The notes under the pieces are model-generated. The model ran no database searches, was not told where the DNA came from, and saw nothing but the letters and a program-made list of their open reading frames with translations. The position numbers and the translations under genes were made by a program. A DNA stretch of 64,000 bases, from positions 86,080-150,079 of the forward strand of contig JANJWO010000036.1 of assembly GCA_024709485.1 (NCBI GenBank). Direction: 5' to 3'. The DNA is from Hydrogenophilaceae bacterium (GTDB lineage Bacteria > Pseudomonadota > Gammaproteobacteria > Burkholderiales > Thiobacillaceae). This document shows positions 23,241 to 31,065 of this stretch, piece by piece; position 1 is the first letter of the stretch, and every line of letters begins with the position of its first letter.

Positions 23241-23693
23241 CTAGTGCGCCCGCTCCGGGCTGGCAAATGCGTAGGGGCGCGCAACATGGATAAGCCAGTG
23301 CCCGCCCTTCTTCTTCATCAGGCCGGCGATGTGGACCTTCATCTGCGGCATTGCCGCGCCATTTCGATCGAGCGCGTGGTCGATGGTCATCTCGCCGTCG
23401 AACCAGGCCAGGTCGCGGGTCAGCGGTTTCGATGTCAGGCTCAGTATCCTGGCGTGCGAATCCCGGAAAGTCGTGGCCTGCTCGTCGGCCAGGATTTTTT
23501 CGATCTCGGCCTTGCCGCTGGCGGCGCGGCCCACCGGGTTGATGAGCGACGCGTCTTCGTCCCAGTACGAGAGCATTTCATTCACGTTGTGCTTGTTCCA
23601 CGCTGCGAAGAATTCATCGAAGGTGTGCAGCATTGCCGCGGTGTCGCCCGAAGCTTTGGCACGGTGTGCCGTGGGGGAAACAGTTGTATGCAT
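23241..23693 (-). CDS. SnoaL/SgcJ-like (NTF2-fold, DUF4440-type) protein
   Basis: A 150-residue protein with the NTF2-like pattern. The N-terminal helix MLHTFDEFFAAWNKHNVNEM is followed by LSYWDEDASLINPVGRAASG (the typical W..D..f.np.G turn), a strand FDGEMTIDHAL and the closing GHWLIHVARPYAF. Such proteins are small cytoplasmic enzymes or ligand binders. No specific role can be assigned. It is divergent from the ECF sigma gene across a 440-bp gap. Confidence 0.65.
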   Translation of the reverse strand: MHTTVSPTAHRAKASGDTAAMLHTFDEFFAAWNKHNVNEMLSYWDEDASLINPVGRAASGKAEIEKILADEQATTFRDSHARILSLTSKPLTRDLAWFDGEMTIDHALDRNGAAMPQMKVHIAGLMKKKGGHWLIHVARPYAFASPERAH

Positions 23694-24133
23694 TTCAGTA
23701 CCTCATCCATCAGAGTTGAAAAACCCGCTTTTGGCCTCTCCCCGATACCTCTATGCATAGATGAAGTTGGCGCAGTTGAATTAAGAAATACTTATGGCGG
23801 TTTGCCGGGCATGGCGGCAAGCAAAAATCACGGAGCGGGGAAATGCACGAGCTTGCCTCGGGCGCGCCATCCGGATGACAATCCGCCGAGGGCCATAAGC
23901 GCGCATCGTGTTGCGCTCACGGCTGCCCCGCCGGCCCGCGCGAGCGGGCGGGCAAAACCACGCCCCCTCTGCGGCAGGGAGCAGCGGCCCCCTTCGGCGG
24001 CGTGCGAAAAAACCGGAACTTTTTTTGCACTGGCCCGTTTAATGCTGAGCGGAAGAGGTTTTATCACCCCCAGGCACTAGCCAGACGTGGGAAGGTTTGC
24101 CCAGAACAGGGCCTTAAATGAGCAGCGTGCCGG
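23694..24133. other. 440-bp intergenic region between the SnoaL-like gene and the ECF sigma gene
   Basis: No credible gene is seen. Its right part holds an ECF-type promoter at 24015-24042, leaving a leader of about 85 bases before the sigma factor. The left part must contain whatever promoter drives the minus-strand SnoaL-like gene, but none is clear. An eight-codon frame at 24118-24144 overlaps the sigma start and is probably fortuitous. Confidence 0.6.
24015..24042 (+). promoter_or_regulatory. ECF-type promoter upstream of the sigma factor (site 1)
   Basis: GGAAC at 24015-24019 and CGTTTAA at 24036-24042 are separated by 16 bp, with a T-run just after the -35 box. The -35 is preceded by AAAAAACC. 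The same elements with identical spacing occur at 25814-25841. GGAAC is the common ECF -35 core. Its position in front of the sigma gene implies positive autoregulation. Confidence 0.8.
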
Positions 24134-24706
24134 ATGAATCATAGCGAATCTTGCTGCAACTGGATGCAGTTGCAGGATCACGAGTGCGTCGCGCTGTTCC
24201 AGGACGGTGAGCAGGATGTTTTTGCGGAACTGGTGCGCCGTTACCAGAACCGCATTTTCCGTTTCCTCCTGCGCATGACGGGTTGTCGCGAAGACGCCCT
24301 GGAGCTGACCCAGGACACGATGATGAAGGCGCTTCGTGCGCTTTCCAGTTGGCGGCCGGACACCGCTTTTTCCACCTGGCTGTTCCGCATCGCCAACAAT
24401 ACCGCCACCGACCGGCTGCGGCGCAAGAAGGTGGTCAAGTACATCCCGCTGGACGAGCACATGGATTTTCCCGATCCGGCGGCGGGGCCGGAAGAGGCGC
24501 TGCAATCCGCGCAACGCACCCGCATCCTCGACGCGGCGTTGCAGCGGCTGCAGAAAGACTACCGTGAGGTGCTGCTGCTGCGGGAAATCGAGGAAATGTC
24601 GTATGCCGAGATCGGCGAAGTGCTCGGATTGCGCGAGGGGACGGTCAAATCCCGCATCGCGCGGGCAAGACAGGCTCTCCTGGATGTCTGTAGAGGCAGG
24701 CTCTGA
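24134..24706 (+). CDS. ECF-family RNA polymerase sigma factor
   Basis: A 190-residue sigma-70 family protein with only regions 2 and 4. Region 2 includes FAELVRRYQNRIFRFLLRMT and DALELTQDTMMKALRALSSW. Region 4 is the helix-turn-helix YREVLLLREIEEMSYAEIGE followed by VLGLREGTVKSRIARARQAL. The start is either ATG 24134 or ATG 24164; neither has a strong ribosome-binding site. A zinc-finger anti-sigma factor follows after 39 bp and a periplasmic sensor after that. Matching promoters in front of itself and of the porin-sox genes make both its likely targets. Confidence 0.92.
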   Translation: MNHSESCCNWMQLQDHECVALFQDGEQDVFAELVRRYQNRIFRFLLRMTGCREDALELTQDTMMKALRALSSWRPDTAFSTWLFRIANNTATDRLRRKKVVKYIPLDEHMDFPDPAAGPEEALQSAQRTRILDAALQRLQKDYREVLLLREIEEMSYAEIGEVLGLREGTVKSRIARARQALLDVCRGRL

Positions 24707-24745
24707 AGCCGATCACACGGAATTTGAAAATCGAGAGGTAGCGAT

Positions 24746-25195
24746 ATGAATAGGCACTGTAGCAGTAACGAGGCGTTGTCCGCCTACCTGGACGGTGAAC
24801 TGGGCGGGAATCGCCGCGCGGAATTCGAGAGACACTTGGCGGCTTGCGCCCTCTGCCAGGAGGCACTGCATAATTTTCAGTGTCTGCGGGCGTGCTTCCA
24901 GTCCCTGCCGCACCAGGAAATAGGCTACGACCTGGCCCCCGCGCTGCTGGCCGGGGCGAAGCCCAGGACCGCACCGACCTGGCGGCACCGCTGCAGCCTG
25001 TGGCAATTGCTGCCGACCTCCTTCGCGGCCGCAGCCACGATTTCGCTGGGCATCTTCCTGGGAACCAGCCTGGTCGGCACGCCCGATGCCGGCGCGGCGA
25101 CCCCGCCCCCGTCCCTGGCCATGTTCGACCTTCTCCCGCCAGGCAGCGTATGCGTTGGCTCCTTTGCGGGCTGCTACCCGGAGGGAAAAATCTGA
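24746..25195 (+). CDS. Membrane-anchored zinc-finger anti-sigma factor
   Basis: A 149-residue protein with an N-terminal ZAS-type finger: the HLAACALC motif gives His30-x3-Cys34-x2-Cys37, with His4/Cys5 available as a further ligand. One transmembrane helix lies at about 90-110. The short C-terminal part is predicted periplasmic and has two cysteines (VCVGSFAGCY). Such proteins hold their ECF sigma factor at the membrane until a signal arrives. The stop shares a base with the next gene (TGATG), so sensor and anti-sigma factor are co-translated. Confidence 0.85.
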   Translation: MNRHCSSNEALSAYLDGELGGNRRAEFERHLAACALCQEALHNFQCLRACFQSLPHQEIGYDLAPALLAGAKPRTAPTWRHRCSLWQLLPTSFAAAATISLGIFLGTSLVGTPDAGAATPPPSLAMFDLLPPGSVCVGSFAGCYPEGKI

Positions 25196-25665
25196 TGAAA
25201 CGTCATTGGCTCTATCTACTCCTGACCCTTTCCCTCCTCCTCAACGTGGGCGTGCTCGGCGCCGTGGGCTACCGGACGTGGCAAAACGGCAACGTCTCCG
25301 GCGCGCAGGGCGAGGCCAAGCCCGACCAGCTGGCGCAGCGCCTCAATCTCAGCGAGGAACAGCGCCGGCAATGGCGGCAGAAAGAGGAAAGATTCCTGCG
25401 GGAAATGCAGGTCGACTGGGAACAAGTCCGCCTCCACCGCGAAAACATGATCCGCCAGATCTTCTCGCCGCAACCGGACATGGCGGCGATCGAAACCGCG
25501 CGTGCGGCAATTTGCCGCATCCAGGAAAAACAGCAGCGCCATGTCATTGCGCAGCTGATGGAAGAGCAGCGCATGCTCGATGCGCAACAGCGGGAGACCC
25601 TCGCCGGGCTGCTGATCCAGCAAAGGCCCGCCGGCTCGCTCGAAGAGCACCTGCACCGCCACTGA
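25195..25665 (+). CDS. Periplasmic heavy-metal-sensor-like protein (CnrX/ZraP/CpxP type)
   Basis: A 156-residue protein with one N-terminal membrane anchor (WLYLLLTLSLLLNVGVLGAV) and a helical periplasmic domain. The domain contains LAQRLNLSEEQRRQWRQKEE and RAAICRIQEKQQRHVIAQLM, the pattern of the Metal_resist/CpxP-like helical hairpin. In CnrYXH of Cupriavidus a protein of this type (CnrX) senses nickel/cobalt and releases the ECF sigma factor through the anti-sigma factor. The gene directly overlaps the anti-sigma gene by one base. The ligand here is unknown; one Cys and several His are present but no obvious metal site. Confidence 0.75.
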   Translation: MKRHWLYLLLTLSLLLNVGVLGAVGYRTWQNGNVSGAQGEAKPDQLAQRLNLSEEQRRQWRQKEERFLREMQVDWEQVRLHRENMIRQIFSPQPDMAAIETARAAICRIQEKQQRHVIAQLMEEQRMLDAQQRETLAGLLIQQRPAGSLEEHLHRH

Positions 25666-25677
25666 GCCCCGGGGTGC

Positions 25678-25699
25678 GCGCCACGCTCCGCCGTGGCGC
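25678..25699. repeat. Hairpin after the sigma operon
   Basis: GCGCCACG and CGTGGCGC form a perfect 8-bp stem with a six-base loop, 12 bp after the sensor stop. There is no T-run, so it may be a weak terminator or RNA-stabilising hairpin separating the sigma operon from the porin promoter. Confidence 0.5.
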
Positions 25700-25813
25700 C
25701 CGTGCCCGTCTCCCCGCCGTCCCACCGCACGCAACCGTCGCCGATTTGCGCTTGCGCAAACGGTCATCGGCTTCCGCGACACCGCAAAAATTTTTCGCTT
25801 CCCGAAAAAAACC

Positions 25814-25841
25814 GGAACATTTTTCCCGCTCCTCCGTTTAA
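25814..25841 (+). promoter_or_regulatory. ECF-type promoter upstream of the porin-sox cluster (site 2)
   Basis: GGAAC at 25814-25818 and CGTTTAA at 25835-25841, spacer 16 bp, preceded by AAAAAACC and followed by ATTTTT. It is essentially the same as site 1 at 24015-24042. It lies about 100 bp before the porin start, placing the porin and probably the downstream sox genes under the ECF sigma factor. Confidence 0.8.
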
Positions 25842-25942
25842 GCAGTTGAAGAGCTTGATGTCTTCTGATCCGCCGTAACCTCCCTCGCGCGTGGCGGCGA
25901 CATCAGTGTCTTCTTCGCCAACAACTATATGAGGAGAACGGA

Positions 25943-27436
25943 ATGTCTACCAACAAGCTGAGCCTTGCCGCGGCCTGCGCCGCGGTCGGGCTTACGGCCG
26001 CGGGTTCAAGCCAGGCCGCCAACTGGGTGATGATGTACGGAACCGAGCCCGCCACCAGCACACACCGCCTGCTCGGGGCGGTGCAGCTTAGCTACGAAAA
26101 CAACTTCGGCTGCACCGAGCCGGACGGCCTGAAGGGCGCCGCGGCCGTCAACAACGGCGGGGTGGTGAACAACTGCCGCGTCGGGCCGGAGCTGAGGGAC
26201 AGCGAAAGCGGTCTTTACCTGCAAAACCTGATGCTGGGCGCGCGCGGCAACCTGATCCCCGAGCGCATCAACTACTTCATTGCCGCCAACGCCGGCGAGA
26301 ACGTCGCCAACTACAAGCCCTACAAGACCGACCGCGAACACCTCGCGAGCGTGACCGACGCCAGCCTCTCCTTCCACTACATCCCCGGCGTGCGGGTGCG
26401 CGCGGGCCTGCTGCGCAAGCCCGGTCCGGAGGAGCTGTACCAGGGGCTGGAAGCGACCGACTACGTCTTCCTCACCGATTTCACGCAGCGGGTGCAGATC
26501 GAGCGCTTCATCAAGGGCAACGCCAAGAGCACCAACGCGATCCCCGGCCAGGGCTATGGCTACCAGGGCACCTTGAACGGCAAGGGCATAGGCAGCGGCG
26601 TGGGCGACATCACCGGCAACGTGTCCACATACGGCTACGACGCCGACGCCGGGCGCGACTGGGGCATCCAGCTCTTCGACGCGTTCAAGCGCGACAAGTG
26701 GACCCACACCTACTCGGTGATGTTCGGCAACGGCAACGGCATCCACCATTCCGACAACAACAGCGAGAAGGACCTCAACCTCTACTGGTCGTCCGAGTAC
26801 GACCTGCCCGGCGGCCAGGGGCCGCTCAAGCACGGCATCAAGCTCTACGGCTATCACCAGCAGGGCGTGCGCAACTTCATCATCGACGCCGACGGCACCA
26901 AAAGCCGGGATTTCGACAGGATCCGCTACGGCATCGGCGCCAAGGCGATCGGCTACCTGTTCGGCGAGGAGCGCGGCAAGCATCGCCTGGCGTTCGAGTT
27001 GATGTTCGCCGAAGGCATGATCAACTACACCCCCACCGCCAACATGGCGGAGGCCACCTACGGCGGCCTCGTCCAGTTCGCGGCCGAACGCGACAACAAG
27101 GCCAAGGGCATGAGCTTCGACTACGGCTACTACCTCGACAAGCACTGGCAGTTCGACGCCCGCTACTCGCGCAACGACCTGCTTTACGAGCAGGCCGACA
27201 CCGCCTACTGGACCGATTCCGACTACCGCGTCCTGGAATACCTCACCCTGGGGGTGAACTACCACTTCACGCCCAAGGCCCGGCTCACCTTCAACTACGA
27301 GTTCCGCCATGCCGAAGCGCAGAACCCCGTGCGCAACACGAACGGCACCGTCAACACCAACGCCACCATCAATGCCAACCAGATCACCGGCTCGGTGGGC
27401 GATCGCGTCGGCCTGAGGCTCACGTACAGCTTCTAG
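25943..27436 (+). CDS. Outer-membrane porin-like beta-barrel protein
   Basis: A 497-residue protein with a signal peptide (cleavage near AGSSQA), many alternating aromatic/polar strands (WTHTYSVMFGNGNG, FDYGYYLDKHWQFDARYSRN) and a C-terminal strand ending in LRLTYSF. The terminal Phe is the outer-membrane targeting mark. The strong GAGGAG site before ATG 25943 fixes the start. Two cysteines (FGCTEPDG, NNCRVG) may form a loop disulfide. It follows an ECF promoter and precedes soxX by 34 bp, so it may pass thiosulfate or another anion into the periplasm. That substrate is inferred. Confidence 0.65.
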   Translation: MSTNKLSLAAACAAVGLTAAGSSQAANWVMMYGTEPATSTHRLLGAVQLSYENNFGCTEPDGLKGAAAVNNGGVVNNCRVGPELRDSESGLYLQNLMLGARGNLIPERINYFIAANAGENVANYKPYKTDREHLASVTDASLSFHYIPGVRVRAGLLRKPGPEELYQGLEATDYVFLTDFTQRVQIERFIKGNAKSTNAIPGQGYGYQGTLNGKGIGSGVGDITGNVSTYGYDADAGRDWGIQLFDAFKRDKWTHTYSVMFGNGNGIHHSDNNSEKDLNLYWSSEYDLPGGQGPLKHGIKLYGYHQQGVRNFIIDADGTKSRDFDRIRYGIGAKAIGYLFGEERGKHRLAFELMFAEGMINYTPTANMAEATYGGLVQFAAERDNKAKGMSFDYGYYLDKHWQFDARYSRNDLLYEQADTAYWTDSDYRVLEYLTLGVNYHFTPKARLTFNYEFRHAEAQNPVRNTNGTVNTNATINANQITGSVGDRVGLRLTYSF

Positions 27437-27470: not shown

Positions 27471-27947
27471 ATGAAATCGATTTTTGAAAAAGGCCGGGCC
27501 GTTGCGCTGCTGCTCGCGGCGGCCGCGCTCGCCGGTTGCGCAGGCCAGCAAGCCGCGGGCCCGGCAAAAGCATCGGATTTTTCGGAGTGGCCCTGCCTGA
27601 GCAGTTCCCTGCCGTGCGGCAAGCTCGCCACCCGCAAGCCGGTCCAGCAGGCGCTCGCCGGCCCGCTCAACGGCGACCCGGCCCGCGGCAAGGCGCTTGC
27701 CAACGAGCGCAGCAAGGGCAACTGCGTCGCCTGCCACCTGCTGCAGGGCGCGGAACAGCCCGGCTCCAAGGGCCCGGACCTGCGCAGCTACGGCAGCTGG
27801 GCCAGAAGCGACGCGGAAACCTACGCCCTGGTTTACGACATGCGCTCGCGCAACCCGGACACCGTCATGCCGCCGGCCGGGACCAACCAAATCTTGACTG
27901 ATCAGGAGCTGCGCGATGTGGTCGCCTTCCTGCAGTCCTCGAAGTAA
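27471..27947 (+). CDS. soxX: Sulfur oxidation c-type cytochrome SoxX
   Basis: SoxX carries one heme and pairs with SoxA to attach thiosulfate to the SoxYZ carrier in the periplasm. The 158-residue product has the heme site CVACH at 85-89 and a Met ligand in TVMPPAGT (Met133). The signal sequence ends in a lipobox (LAGC, Cys23), so it is probably membrane-anchored, which is not the rule for SoxX. ATG 27471 is chosen because AGAGGA lies six bases upstream; ATG 27465 is possible. It is followed by soxA after 13 bp. Confidence 0.9.
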   Translation: MKSIFEKGRAVALLLAAAALAGCAGQQAAGPAKASDFSEWPCLSSSLPCGKLATRKPVQQALAGPLNGDPARGKALANERSKGNCVACHLLQGAEQPGSKGPDLRSYGSWARSDAETYALVYDMRSRNPDTVMPPAGTNQILTDQELRDVVAFLQSSK

Positions 27948-27960
27948 AGGAGCCCGGACT

Positions 27961-28884
27961 ATGGCTGAAAAACATTTCTCACTGAGCGCGCTTGCCCTGG
28001 TGGCACTCGTCGTGACAGCGAACGGCCAGGCGGCCGATGCCGAGGCATACCGGGAATTCTATCCGCACGTTGCCATCGACCCGGCGCGGGGAGTCGCCGG
28101 CGGCGCCGACGCCGAATTCGGCGCCACCCTGCAATACTGGCAGGACGAGCAGGCGCTCGAGCAAAACAAGGGCTTCATCGGTCAGGTGGACCAGGAGTGG
28201 AAGCTCAACTGGAAATTCATGGATCTCGATCGCTCCGACGACATGCACCCGGGATACCTGGCGCTGGAGAAGGCAGAAAAGCTTTTCAAATTCTGGGTCA
28301 AGCGCGAGCCTGAATTCCGCGCCTGCCTCGGCGAGGGCAAAACCGACCTCACCGGCCTGGCCGCTGGCTATCCCAAGTACGACCCCAAGCTGAAGAAGAT
28401 CATGACGGTCGAAAGCCGCGTGGAGCACTGCGCCCAGACCGCCTTGTGGGAGAACTTCAGGCAGGGCACGCCGGAAAACAATCTGATCTCGCTTTATTTC
28501 AAGTCGCTTTCCGCCACGGCGCCGATCAAGGTGGACACGAATTCCCCCGAAATCATGGCGTCCTACAAGCGCGGCGAGAAGCTGTTCTACACCAAGGTCG
28601 GCCAGTACAACTTCTCCTGCGCCTCCTGCCACACGTCGAGCGGCCTGCTCGGCCAGCGCTTCCGCGGCCAGGTGCCGACCTCGCCGTTCGCGGACGCGGC
28701 CCACTTCCCCACCTATCGCATGAACCTCGGCGACATCGAATCGCTGCAGCAGCGCTTCATGCGCTGCAACCTGCAGGCGCGCACCAAGGGGCTGCCGCCC
28801 GGCAATCCGGATTACACCGATCTCGAAGTGTTCTACACCGTGCTTTCCAACGGCTATCCGGTTTCCGTGCCTTCCGCACGGTGA
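27961..28884 (+). CDS. soxA: L-cysteine S-thiosulfotransferase subunit SoxA (monoheme type)
   Basis: SoxA is the catalytic subunit of SoxAX, which links thiosulfate oxidatively to the SoxY cysteine. The 307-residue protein has a signal peptide and one heme site, CASCH at 220-224. The active-site cysteine ligand is in FMRCN (Cys269). At the place of the N-terminal heme of diheme SoxA only Cys122 and Cys157 (EHCAQTA) remain, probably as a disulfide, so this is the monoheme form. AGGAG precedes the start. It lies between soxX and soxY. Confidence 0.93.
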   Translation: MAEKHFSLSALALVALVVTANGQAADAEAYREFYPHVAIDPARGVAGGADAEFGATLQYWQDEQALEQNKGFIGQVDQEWKLNWKFMDLDRSDDMHPGYLALEKAEKLFKFWVKREPEFRACLGEGKTDLTGLAAGYPKYDPKLKKIMTVESRVEHCAQTALWENFRQGTPENNLISLYFKSLSATAPIKVDTNSPEIMASYKRGEKLFYTKVGQYNFSCASCHTSSGLLGQRFRGQVPTSPFADAAHFPTYRMNLGDIESLQQRFMRCNLQARTKGLPPGNPDYTDLEVFYTVLSNGYPVSVPSAR

Positions 28885-28915
28885 CCTTTTGTCACAACGT
28901 CAAACGGAGAATGGT

Positions 28916-29410
28916 ATGAAAGTAGCAAATGAAATCAACCAAGCGCGCAGGGCCCTGCTGAAGGGCGGGTGCACCGCGGGCGTGCTCGCCCTCGCCGCAT
29001 CCGCCGGCCTGCTCACGCCGGGCCGCGTCCTGGCCGCGCCGTGGAACAAGGGCGCCTTTGAAGCCAAGAGCATCCCCGATGCGCTCAAGGGCCTGGGCGC
29101 CGGCGGCAGCGCCGCCACCAGCGCGGACATCGCGATCAAGGCCCCCGACATCGCCGAAAACGGCGCCGTGGTCCCGGTCGAGGTCACCAGCCAGATTGCC
29201 GACACCCAGGCGATCATCATCCTTTCGGAGAAGAACCCGCTGCCGCTGCTGGCAAATTTCGACTTCACCGAGGGAAGCGCACAGGGCTACGTCTCCACCC
29301 GCATCAAGCTGGGACAGACCTCGCAGGTGCGCGTGGTCGTCAAGGCCGGCGGCAAATACTACAGCGCGGCCAAGGAAATCAAAGTCACCATCGGCGGCTG
29401 CGGCGGCTGA
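28916..29410 (+). CDS. soxY: Thiosulfate oxidation carrier protein SoxY
   Basis: SoxY carries the sulfur substrate on a cysteine of its flexible C-terminal arm. The 164-residue protein ends exactly in IGGCGG, the carrier motif. The N-terminus has a twin-arginine signal (NQARRALLKGG followed by a hydrophobic run ending GRVLA), consistent with export as a folded SoxYZ heterodimer. ATG 28916 has ACGGAGA upstream; a frame start nine codons earlier is less likely. soxZ follows after 46 bp. Confidence 0.94.
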   Translation: MKVANEINQARRALLKGGCTAGVLALAASAGLLTPGRVLAAPWNKGAFEAKSIPDALKGLGAGGSAATSADIAIKAPDIAENGAVVPVEVTSQIADTQAIIILSEKNPLPLLANFDFTEGSAQGYVSTRIKLGQTSQVRVVVKAGGKYYSAAKEIKVTIGGCGG

Positions 29411-29456
29411 ACCTCTTTTTGATCGAATTTTTGCATTTCTAAGGAAAGGAACGAAC

Positions 29457-29771
29457 ATGGCAGAACCGATGAAAGTCCGCGCGAAGCTCGCCGGAGACGT
29501 GCTGGACGTCAAGATCCTGATCAGCCACACGATGGAGACCGGCCAGCGCAAGGATGCGAAAAGCGGCCAGGTGGTGCCCGCCCATTTCATCCAGAACGTC
29601 ACCGTCGACCTGAACGGCAAGACGGCGGTTGCGGCGCAATGGGGCGCGGCGATCTCGAAGGATCCCTTCCTCGGCCTGAAACTGAAGGGCGCCAAGGCCG
29701 GCGACACCGTGACGGTGAACTGGGAAGACAACAAGGGCGGAAAGGGTAGTGGCGCGACCACAATTACCTGA
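29457..29771 (+). CDS. soxZ: Thiosulfate oxidation carrier complex protein SoxZ
   Basis: SoxZ is the partner of SoxY in the sulfur carrier. The 104-residue product starts MAEPMKVRAKLAGDVLDVKI and contains HTMETGQRKDAKSGQVVPAH and FIQNVTVDLNGK, all typical. It has no signal peptide, as expected since it is co-exported with SoxY by the Tat system. An AAGGAAAGGA site lies upstream. It is followed by a cytochrome gene rather than soxB, which is not present in this window. Confidence 0.95.
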   Translation: MAEPMKVRAKLAGDVLDVKILISHTMETGQRKDAKSGQVVPAHFIQNVTVDLNGKTAVAAQWGAAISKDPFLGLKLKGAKAGDTVTVNWEDNKGGKGSGATTIT

Positions 29772-29864
29772 GCGTTTTCCGGCAGCCCCGGCGCGCAAGC
29801 ATGGCGCGCGGGGCGCATGCCGCCGGACGCGTTGGCAAACAATCATCAATTTCGGAGTAGATTC

Positions 29865-30332
29865 ATGAAGGTAAATTTCAAGGCGGTGTGTCTCGGTCTG
29901 GCGATGGGCCTGGCCACGGCAGGAGCAGTGGCCGACATCGGCAAGGACGATCGGCTCGATGTGGTACTGGAACCCGATGAGCGGCATCTCGTGCTGTTCG
30001 AGATGCGCAGCTTCCTCCAGGCCCTCCAGGGCATAACCGAGGCGCTGACGCGGGAGGACATGCAGACCGTGGCCAACCTGGCGCGCACCATGGGCAGCGG
30101 AGCCGCAAACCAAATTCCGCCCCAAACCACGGCCAAGCTGCCGGAAACCTTCCAGATGCTGGCCGGCACCGTGCACACGACCTTCGACGTCATCGCCCTC
30201 GACGCGGAAAGCCTGGGGGACCCCCTGCATACCATCCGGCAGGTGAGCACGATGATGCAGACCTGCAATGCCTGCCACGGCATCTATCAGGTCAAGGTCG
30301 GCAGCGAACCCTTCCCGCGTCTGAAGCAGTAA
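29865..30332 (+). CDS. Cytochrome c'-like periplasmic heme protein
   Basis: A 155-residue protein with a signal peptide (cleavage near GAVA) and a single heme motif CNACH at 134-138, close to the C-terminus. This and the helical pattern in between are the arrangement of the four-helix cytochromes c'. An upstream GGAG site supports ATG 29865. It lies 93 bp after soxZ on the same strand. It may accept electrons from thiosulfate oxidation or bind a small gas ligand; neither can be shown from sequence. Confidence 0.75.
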   Translation: MKVNFKAVCLGLAMGLATAGAVADIGKDDRLDVVLEPDERHLVLFEMRSFLQALQGITEALTREDMQTVANLARTMGSGAANQIPPQTTAKLPETFQMLAGTVHTTFDVIALDAESLGDPLHTIRQVSTMMQTCNACHGIYQVKVGSEPFPRLKQ

Positions 30333-30582: not shown

Positions 30583-31065
30583 ATGAGAACCATCCTGCTT
30601 TCACTGTCTGCCGCCATGCTGGCTTTCCCCTTGATGACGCAAGCCGCCGCCCCTGTCCACCACGATCACGGCGACGGGGCCGCGCCCGCAATCGAACTCA
30701 ACGCCGGCAAGAAGTGGGCCACCGACGACGCCTTGCGCCAGGGCATGAGCGCGATAAGGACACTTGCCGCCAAAGCGCTGCCGGACGCGCACGCCGGCAA
30801 GCTCAAGCCGGCCGCCTACGATGCGCTGGCGAAAGACGTCAATTCGCACATCGCCTATATCGTGGGCAATTGCAAGCTCGACCCCAAGGCCGACGCGCAA
30901 CTGCACATCATCATCGGCGGCCTGAGCGAAGGGGTCGATGCGATGCAGGGCAAGCGCGCCGGTCAGGCGCGCGCCAAGGGGCTGGTGGAAATCTCCAACA
31001 CCCTGAACACCTACGGCGCTTATTTCAATCATCCGGGCTGGCAAGCCATCAAGCTGCCGCATTGA
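30583..31065 (+). CDS. DnrO-like periplasmic helical protein
   Basis: A 160-residue product starting MRTILLSLSAAMLAFPLMTQ, a signal peptide, then a His-rich segment VHHDHGDG that could bind metal. The helical body contains NAGKKWATDDALRQGM and NCKLDPKADAQLHIIIGG and ends YGAYFNHPGWQAIKLPH. I recall such proteins being annotated as DnrO in denitrifying betaproteobacteria; no biochemical function is known to me. It has no heme motif. The frame is open 82 codons upstream, but ATG 30583 followed by a signal peptide is the sensible start. It closes the sox-side gene run. Confidence 0.6.
   Translation: MRTILLSLSAAMLAFPLMTQAAAPVHHDHGDGAAPAIELNAGKKWATDDALRQGMSAIRTLAAKALPDAHAGKLKPAAYDALAKDVNSHIAYIVGNCKLDPKADAQLHIIIGGLSEGVDAMQGKRAGQARAKGLVEISNTLNTYGAYFNHPGWQAIKLPH

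Follow-up and report, generated by a model that had tools for sequence, protein, structure and literature searches.

We analysed a 64,000-nucleotide (nt) stretch of contig JANJWO010000036.1 from a Hydrogenophilaceae bacterium, referred to here as the window, in which a gene for an extracytoplasmic function (ECF) sigma factor lies ahead of a porin gene and the sulfur oxidation genes soxXAYZ. Genes for a predicted anti-sigma factor and its predicted periplasmic partner stand between them, and a predicted promoter of the same type precedes both the sigma gene and the porin gene. The features of this module, with protein lengths in amino acids (aa), are the following:

24015-24042, plus strand: predicted promoter 1, upstream of the sigma gene; -35 box GGAAC (24015-24019), 16-nt spacer, -10 box CGTTTAA (24036-24042)
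24134-24706, plus strand: ECF sigma factor gene, 190 aa; Sigma70_r2 (4e-21), Sigma70_r4_2 (5e-19), and position in a tree
24746-25195, plus strand: predicted membrane anti-sigma factor; zf-HC2 (H30-C34-C37), possible transmembrane helix at about residues 89-110, tail with C136 and C143
25195-25665, plus strand: membrane-anchored Metal_resist protein (PF13801, 1.7e-17), predicted periplasmic sensor partner
25814-25841, plus strand: predicted promoter 2, upstream of porin-sox; -35 box GGAAC (25814-25818), 16-nt spacer, -10 box CGTTTAA (25835-25841)
25943-27436, plus strand: porin, predicted OprP-like beta-barrel, 497 aa; mean predicted local distance difference test (pLDDT) of the model 85.9, PF07396 in homologues
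27471-27947, plus strand: soxX, TIGR04485 above cut-off; start codon inferred, longest open reading frame (ORF) from 27441
27961-28884, plus strand: soxA, TIGR04484 above cut-off; start codon inferred, longest ORF from 27916
28889-29410, plus strand: soxY, TIGR04488 above cut-off; longest ORF
29439-29771, plus strand: soxZ, TIGR04490 above cut-off

The sigma protein consists of sigma-2 and sigma-4 domains only (PF04542 and PF08281, both above cut-off), the composition of an ECF sigma factor. Its predicted anti-sigma factor carries a zinc-binding zf-HC2 domain above cut-off, with the H-x3-C-x2-C motif invariant in 7 aligned sequences, while the membrane span is a low-confidence helix only. The anti-sigma tail ends in PPGxxC-x5/6-C. 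Among the best 120 of 254 homologues, all 120 have the C-x5-C tail and 119 of these the PPG, and the C-x5/6-C pair is found in all six loci that carry the module (described below), one of them (L243) having PPF for PPG. This invariant cysteine pair hints at redox or sulfur sensing. No Pfam family matches the porin itself, and homologues at 76-78% identity carry PF07396, which we take to be Porin_O_P. Its model finds OprP as the best match in the PDB (2o4v, E 3.3e-13, TM-score 0.51 by query, 12% identity), with other porins close behind. All four of soxXA and soxYZ are supported by NCBIfam equivalogs above cut-off.

The initial annotation had placed two GGAAC-N16-CGTTTAA sites at 24015-24042 and 25814-25841, one before the ECF sigma gene and the other before the porin heading soxXAYZ. 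Both coordinates and sequences are exact (GGAACTTTTTTTGCACTGGCCCGTTTAA and GGAACATTTTTCCCGCTCCTCCGTTTAA, respectively), and the gene calls hold. GGAAC and CGT are the usual ECF boxes. The similarity extends beyond them, as an A-run and CC lie directly 5' of GGAAC at both sites, and the spacer has a T-run, at its start in the first site and after one A in the second. With a spacer of 15 to 18 nt (GGAACN{15,18}CGTTTAA), the window holds 2 matches against 0.01 expected from 100 shuffles, none of which had 2, in agreement with the earlier judgement that a chance origin is unlikely. A simple scan of 23690-25950 found no sigma-70-like site. The whole-genome motif scan proposed with that annotation returned the same 2 sites and none further in the window's own genome (G000; an assembly of 2.54 Mb, 83% complete), with 1 match for the reversed pattern, so that no wider regulon with the full box was found there. 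A looser pattern added one site with CGTTTG, inside an opposite-strand open frame. ECF promoter motifs GAA and GT are also spoken of in PMC3511301, which, like the other papers cited here, is drawn on from part of its text.

The same gaps were then compared in related genomes, as had also been suggested. The porin was searched for in three partly overlapping sets, of 399 genomes from the order, 369 from the class and 117 from the family. Besides the window's genome, five were found to have the whole module: four belong to the same family as the window (G013, G1173, G1174 and G1211), and the fifth, G438, to a different family within the class. The gene order (sigma, anti-sigma, partner, porin, soxX, soxA, soxY, soxZ, c'-like gene) is kept in 6/6, with the G013 operon split over contigs C43 and C25. 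Identity to the window's proteins ranges from 52-79% for the sigma factor and from 57-76% for the porin. Each of the six module genomes has the core GGAAC-N16-CGTT once 5' of the sigma gene and once 5' of the porin gene. Apart from these boxes, the upstream regions of the window and G438 are hardly alignable. Two further genes complete the cluster:

29817-30332, plus strand: small protein with a CxxCH motif, resembling cytochrome c' below the score threshold (PF01322, E 0.094); after soxZ in 6/6 module genomes
30583-31065, plus strand: conserved protein with a signal-like start, at the cluster end, start inferred; in 5/6 module genomes, no Pfam match

GGAAC-N16-CGTTTA occurs in each of the three module genomes searched (2 matches in G000, 3 in G013 with one of them in the module, 1 in G438) and in 0/12 genomes where the anti-sigma factor was not found. 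With the extended pattern GGAACNTT-N13-CGTT, searched in 10 genomes, the six module genomes gave 15 matches, of which 12 fall in the two gaps where they were expected, and four relatives without the module gave none, against 11 for the reversed pattern. The three extra sites off the expected gaps are in G1211 (two) and G013 (one). One, in G1211:C87 (L260:1501-2071), lies 39 nt 5' of a thioredoxin-like gene (PF13098), and this locus is a possible further regulon member. The gene after the thioredoxin-like one looks, by eye, like that of a TolC-type outer-membrane protein. The other G1211 site (L249, in C35) has a strong inverted repeat 3' of it, then a small ORF and the gene of a Trans_reg_C response regulator. 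The extra site in G013:C31 has no convincing downstream gene, and a site in G013:C9 lies inside a reading frame; both were set aside.

The soxXAYZ genes in the window are a second, accessory set. G000, G013 and G438 have one SoxB match each, outside the module, on another contig and beside another soxA, and soxB is absent from the module locus in all three of these genomes searched. This main sox locus also has soxY and soxZ in G000 and G438, the G000 set being another soxXYZA, and soxZ with a partial soxY running up to the contig end in G013. No GGAAC-N16-CGTT precedes the sox genes of the three main loci, the one match in the G000 main sox stretch falling within the soxB span. In addition, at least one SoxA was found in each of the eight same-genus genomes searched (some of them incomplete) and such a porin in none at E<=1e-60, and the module thus looks like an add-on.

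A sister sigma lineage shows the same arrangement with another target. It was found at ten loci, at 48-56% identity, in Burkholderiales, Betaproteobacteria and one genome labelled Sulfuricaulis, and forms one clade with the module sigma factors (support 96/84, midpoint-rooted tree). Nine of these loci (L005-L013) have sigma, anti-sigma and partner genes and were counted; L014, in which the sigma box is present and the anti-sigma factor was not found, was excluded. The sigma box occurs in 8/9, a box 3' of the partner gene in 8/9 and both in 7/9. In the eight sister loci with the second box, the next gene appears to encode a DUF6448 protein (PF20046; Pfam was run on three).

Homologues of the porin also led to a second kind of circuit, termed type 2 here, in which the sigma gene is divergent. 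With the window and G013:C43 set aside and repeats taken once, there were 55 other porin-homologue places, of which 40 were fetched with wide surroundings and 15 left out. BLAST detected a sigma factor in 30 of the 40, namely 29 divergent ones and that of the G438 module. Among the ten loci with none, L128 and L131 have a type-2 anti-sigma factor and L166 is cut by a contig end. All 29 divergent-sigma loci (within L117-L134 and L164-L181), where the porin homologues are distant ones, match the type-2 anti-sigma factor by BLAST, in L174 only where the DsrE-like gene would lie. Four small proteins tried, from two type-2 loci, belong to the DsrE family. In the two type-2 anti-sigma factors tried, no Pfam domain was found, and their DsrE-like tail is therefore assigned by BLAST similarity only. 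A single literature search listed no report of this divergent sigma/DsrE-like anti-sigma family.

Type-2 sigma factors form a separate clade (support 100/99), and their intergenic regions have a box of their own. GGAAT-N17-CGTC was found, on either strand, in 24/29 loci, whereas none of five base shuffles gave more than 4. GGAAT-N16-18-CGT is oriented toward the divergent gene in 24/29, toward the sigma gene in 24/29 and both ways in 23/29. Three type-2 loci, L122, L129 and L130, come from different genomes of a single genus and have soxY as the divergent gene; soxZ and soxA come next and the porin lies farther off, with soxB in between in L122. The paired GGAAT-N16-18-CGT boxes are 5' of soxYZ in all three. 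Since the type-2 sigma factors lie in a separate clade and beside porin homologues and sox genes, two unrelated sigma lineages appear to act on sox genes and on one and the same porin family.

On this comparative evidence, we regard the conserved ECF circuit as real, and direct control of porin-sox by the sigma factor as very likely. We put at about 80% the probability that two operons, porin-soxXAYZ and that of the sigma gene itself (24134-24706), are transcribed by this sigma factor from the two matching promoters, making up an autoregulated switch for accessory thiosulfate oxidation. This twin-promoter circuit, as first proposed from the window, gains support from the core boxes in 6/6 module genomes and from the 7/9 sister loci that keep both boxes ahead of a different target. 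The type-2 loci form an independent parallel to it. In the absence of a signal, the zinc-finger anti-sigma factor would keep the sigma factor tethered to the membrane. Release would follow a signal in the periplasm, sensed by the anti-sigma tail with its invariant cysteine pair and/or by the Metal_resist-type partner. Retention and release are modelled on other ECF systems, including Cnr (PMC7689651). Freed sigma factor would then increase its own synthesis and that of its inhibitor, and would raise the OprP-like channel, SoxXAYZ and the c-type cytochrome, with the module SoxXAYZ presumably working with SoxB from the main sox locus. As a guess, the inducing signal is a reactive sulfur or thiol-redox cue acting through the tail.

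Several observations weigh against this autoregulated porin-sox switch. The -10 heptamer is CGTTTAA twice in four module genomes only, and its tail deviates from TTTAA in G013 (CGTTATA and CGTTTAC) and G438 (CGTTTAT and CGTTTGC). One exact box is missing in two of the nine sister loci, where degenerate forms are kept, and one or both GGAAT-N16-18-CGT boxes are missing in six of the 29 type-2 loci. The module genomes are not independent, because five of the six share a family, within which G1173 and G1174 hardly differ in the module region; several are also incomplete. GGAACN16CGTTTR gave 18 matches in 15 genomes versus 74 for the reversed pattern, and reversed GGAACNTT-N13-CGTT is found 15 times in the six module genomes, as often as the forward pattern, so that the evidence of the boxes lies in their placement and not in their number. 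The anti-sigma tail is without structural support, as the model has pLDDT <50 across residues 69-149, and the use of SoxB from elsewhere by the module SoxXAYZ is inferred.

An unlikely, though still sizeable, alternative is a metal-stress switch like CnrYXH, in which the partner binds metal and frees the sigma factor, and porin and sox form part of a metal or envelope-stress response with sulfur incidental. The partner does match Metal_resist (PF13801), and a sigma factor with a membrane anti-sigma factor and a periplasmic partner resembles the Cnr logic (PMC7689651). However, CnrX needs a conserved methionine, according to the same source, whereas six aligned partner sequences have one invariant histidine and no invariant methionine or cysteine, which makes a CnrX-like metal site unlikely. 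By sequence, the window sigma factor is closer to SigE and SigW of solved structure (101 and 96.5 bits) than to CnrH (57.5 bits). The operons contain no recognisable efflux gene, their targets being porin-sox or DUF6448. With such a partner, metal sensing was not our first choice for the main role.

Somewhat less probable still is an envelope response in which the sigma factor drives the porin only and soxXAYZ is transcribed mainly from another promoter or by another regulator. An element just 3' of the promoter 2 -10 box could serve such a second regulator as its operator:

25848-25865, plus strand: inverted repeat GAAG..CTTC

GAAG..CTTC arms follow the porin -10 box in 5/6 module sequences, with a different repeat in the sixth, and the repeat is located alike in L085, L243, L244, L245 and L163. 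It is possibly a second-regulator operator or a 5' hairpin; its folding as RNA is weak, at -2.8 kcal/mol with a covariation term that is slightly unfavourable, and an RNA structure was rejected. The sister-lineage target, which is not sox, would also fit porin-only control. On the other side, porin through soxZ is tightly packed, with gaps up to about 35 bases (on inferred starts), and none of the six module genomes departs from the porin-soxXAYZ order. That both boxes are chance occurrences or inherited duplicates without function is very improbable. In its favour, reversed short patterns are as frequent or commoner genome-wide; against it, the window expectation is 0.01, and the boxes are retained in most sister loci and in 6/6 module genomes, with little else alignable between the window and G438.

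Returning to the porin-sox switch, a far more general version may be entertained tentatively: ECF sigma factors would be a widespread, twice-evolved switch for sulfur oxidation, with two unrelated lineages, each with matched promoters, in command of sox genes and a single porin family. The anti-sigma tail cysteine pair would sense reactive sulfur directly, and the anion channel and second SoxXAYZ would be induced only once sulfur intermediates arrive in the periplasm. We consider this wider scheme doubtful as a whole.

In a phylum-wide draw of 398 genomes, the sigma factor was found at E<=1e-38 only in the window's own genome; thus either the module is rare or the draw was too thin. Plasmid carriage of the sigma factor was not adopted, as only 17 records were found at E<=1e-25, at 34-41% identity and from unrelated genera. 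Upstream of the sigma gene and pointing away from it is a SnoaL-like gene (23241-23693, minus strand), for which tblastn gave no match in the relatives' module stretches.

Of the systems found, the closest is the sulfite-responsive circuit of the ECF26 sigma factor RpoE4 (and RpoE1) with SorT in Sinorhizobium meliloti, which is activated on thiosulfate and taurine (PMC3511301). The sigE-orf1-sorAB locus of Starkeya novella, named in PMC3797975, is grouped with it here. The window system has in common with RpoE4-SorT an ECF sigma factor, an anti-sigma factor, an autoregulated operon (predicted here) and a second operon downstream for periplasmic sulfur oxidation and a cytochrome c. But the RpoE4-SorT target is sulfite dehydrogenase, whereas that in the window is porin-soxXAYZ; the word 'porin' is absent from the main text of PMC3511301, and no Metal_resist partner appears in the part of that text covered here. 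The view that ECF control of sulfur oxidation was undescribed gives way in part to this precedent. For an ECF circuit on soxXAYZ itself, no report was found among the titles and abstracts listed in searches of open-licence literature. In the part of the Arcobacter genome paper covered (PMC2147049), no link is made between Arcobacter sigma factors and sox.

CnrYXH of Cupriavidus metallidurans shares the sigma factor, membrane anti-sigma factor and periplasmic membrane-anchored partner; the window system differs from it, as far as PMC7689651 is covered, in its zf-HC2 anti-sigma factor with a C-x5/6-C tail, the lack of a conserved partner methionine and targets other than metal efflux. SoxR, which represses sox operons in Paracoccus, Pseudaminobacter and Bradyrhizobium (PMC5748708), also controls sox, but as a repressor without a sigma factor. 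The second cluster of Starkeya novella, soxX2Y2Z2A2F2, likewise provides extra sox genes without soxB, beside the main cluster (PMC3797975). 'Sigma factor' is absent from the text of that paper, the part covered here mentions no ECF control, and the cluster showed very low expression under the conditions used there.

Thiosulfate induction of sox beyond SoxR repression is stated as not known in PMC5748708, and the purpose of an extra soxB-less sox cluster is open on the evidence of PMC3797975. Control of such a cluster by a sigma circuit with two promoters would be a small, testable answer to both questions, and the porin family may serve as a marker for finding similar circuits in other bacteria.

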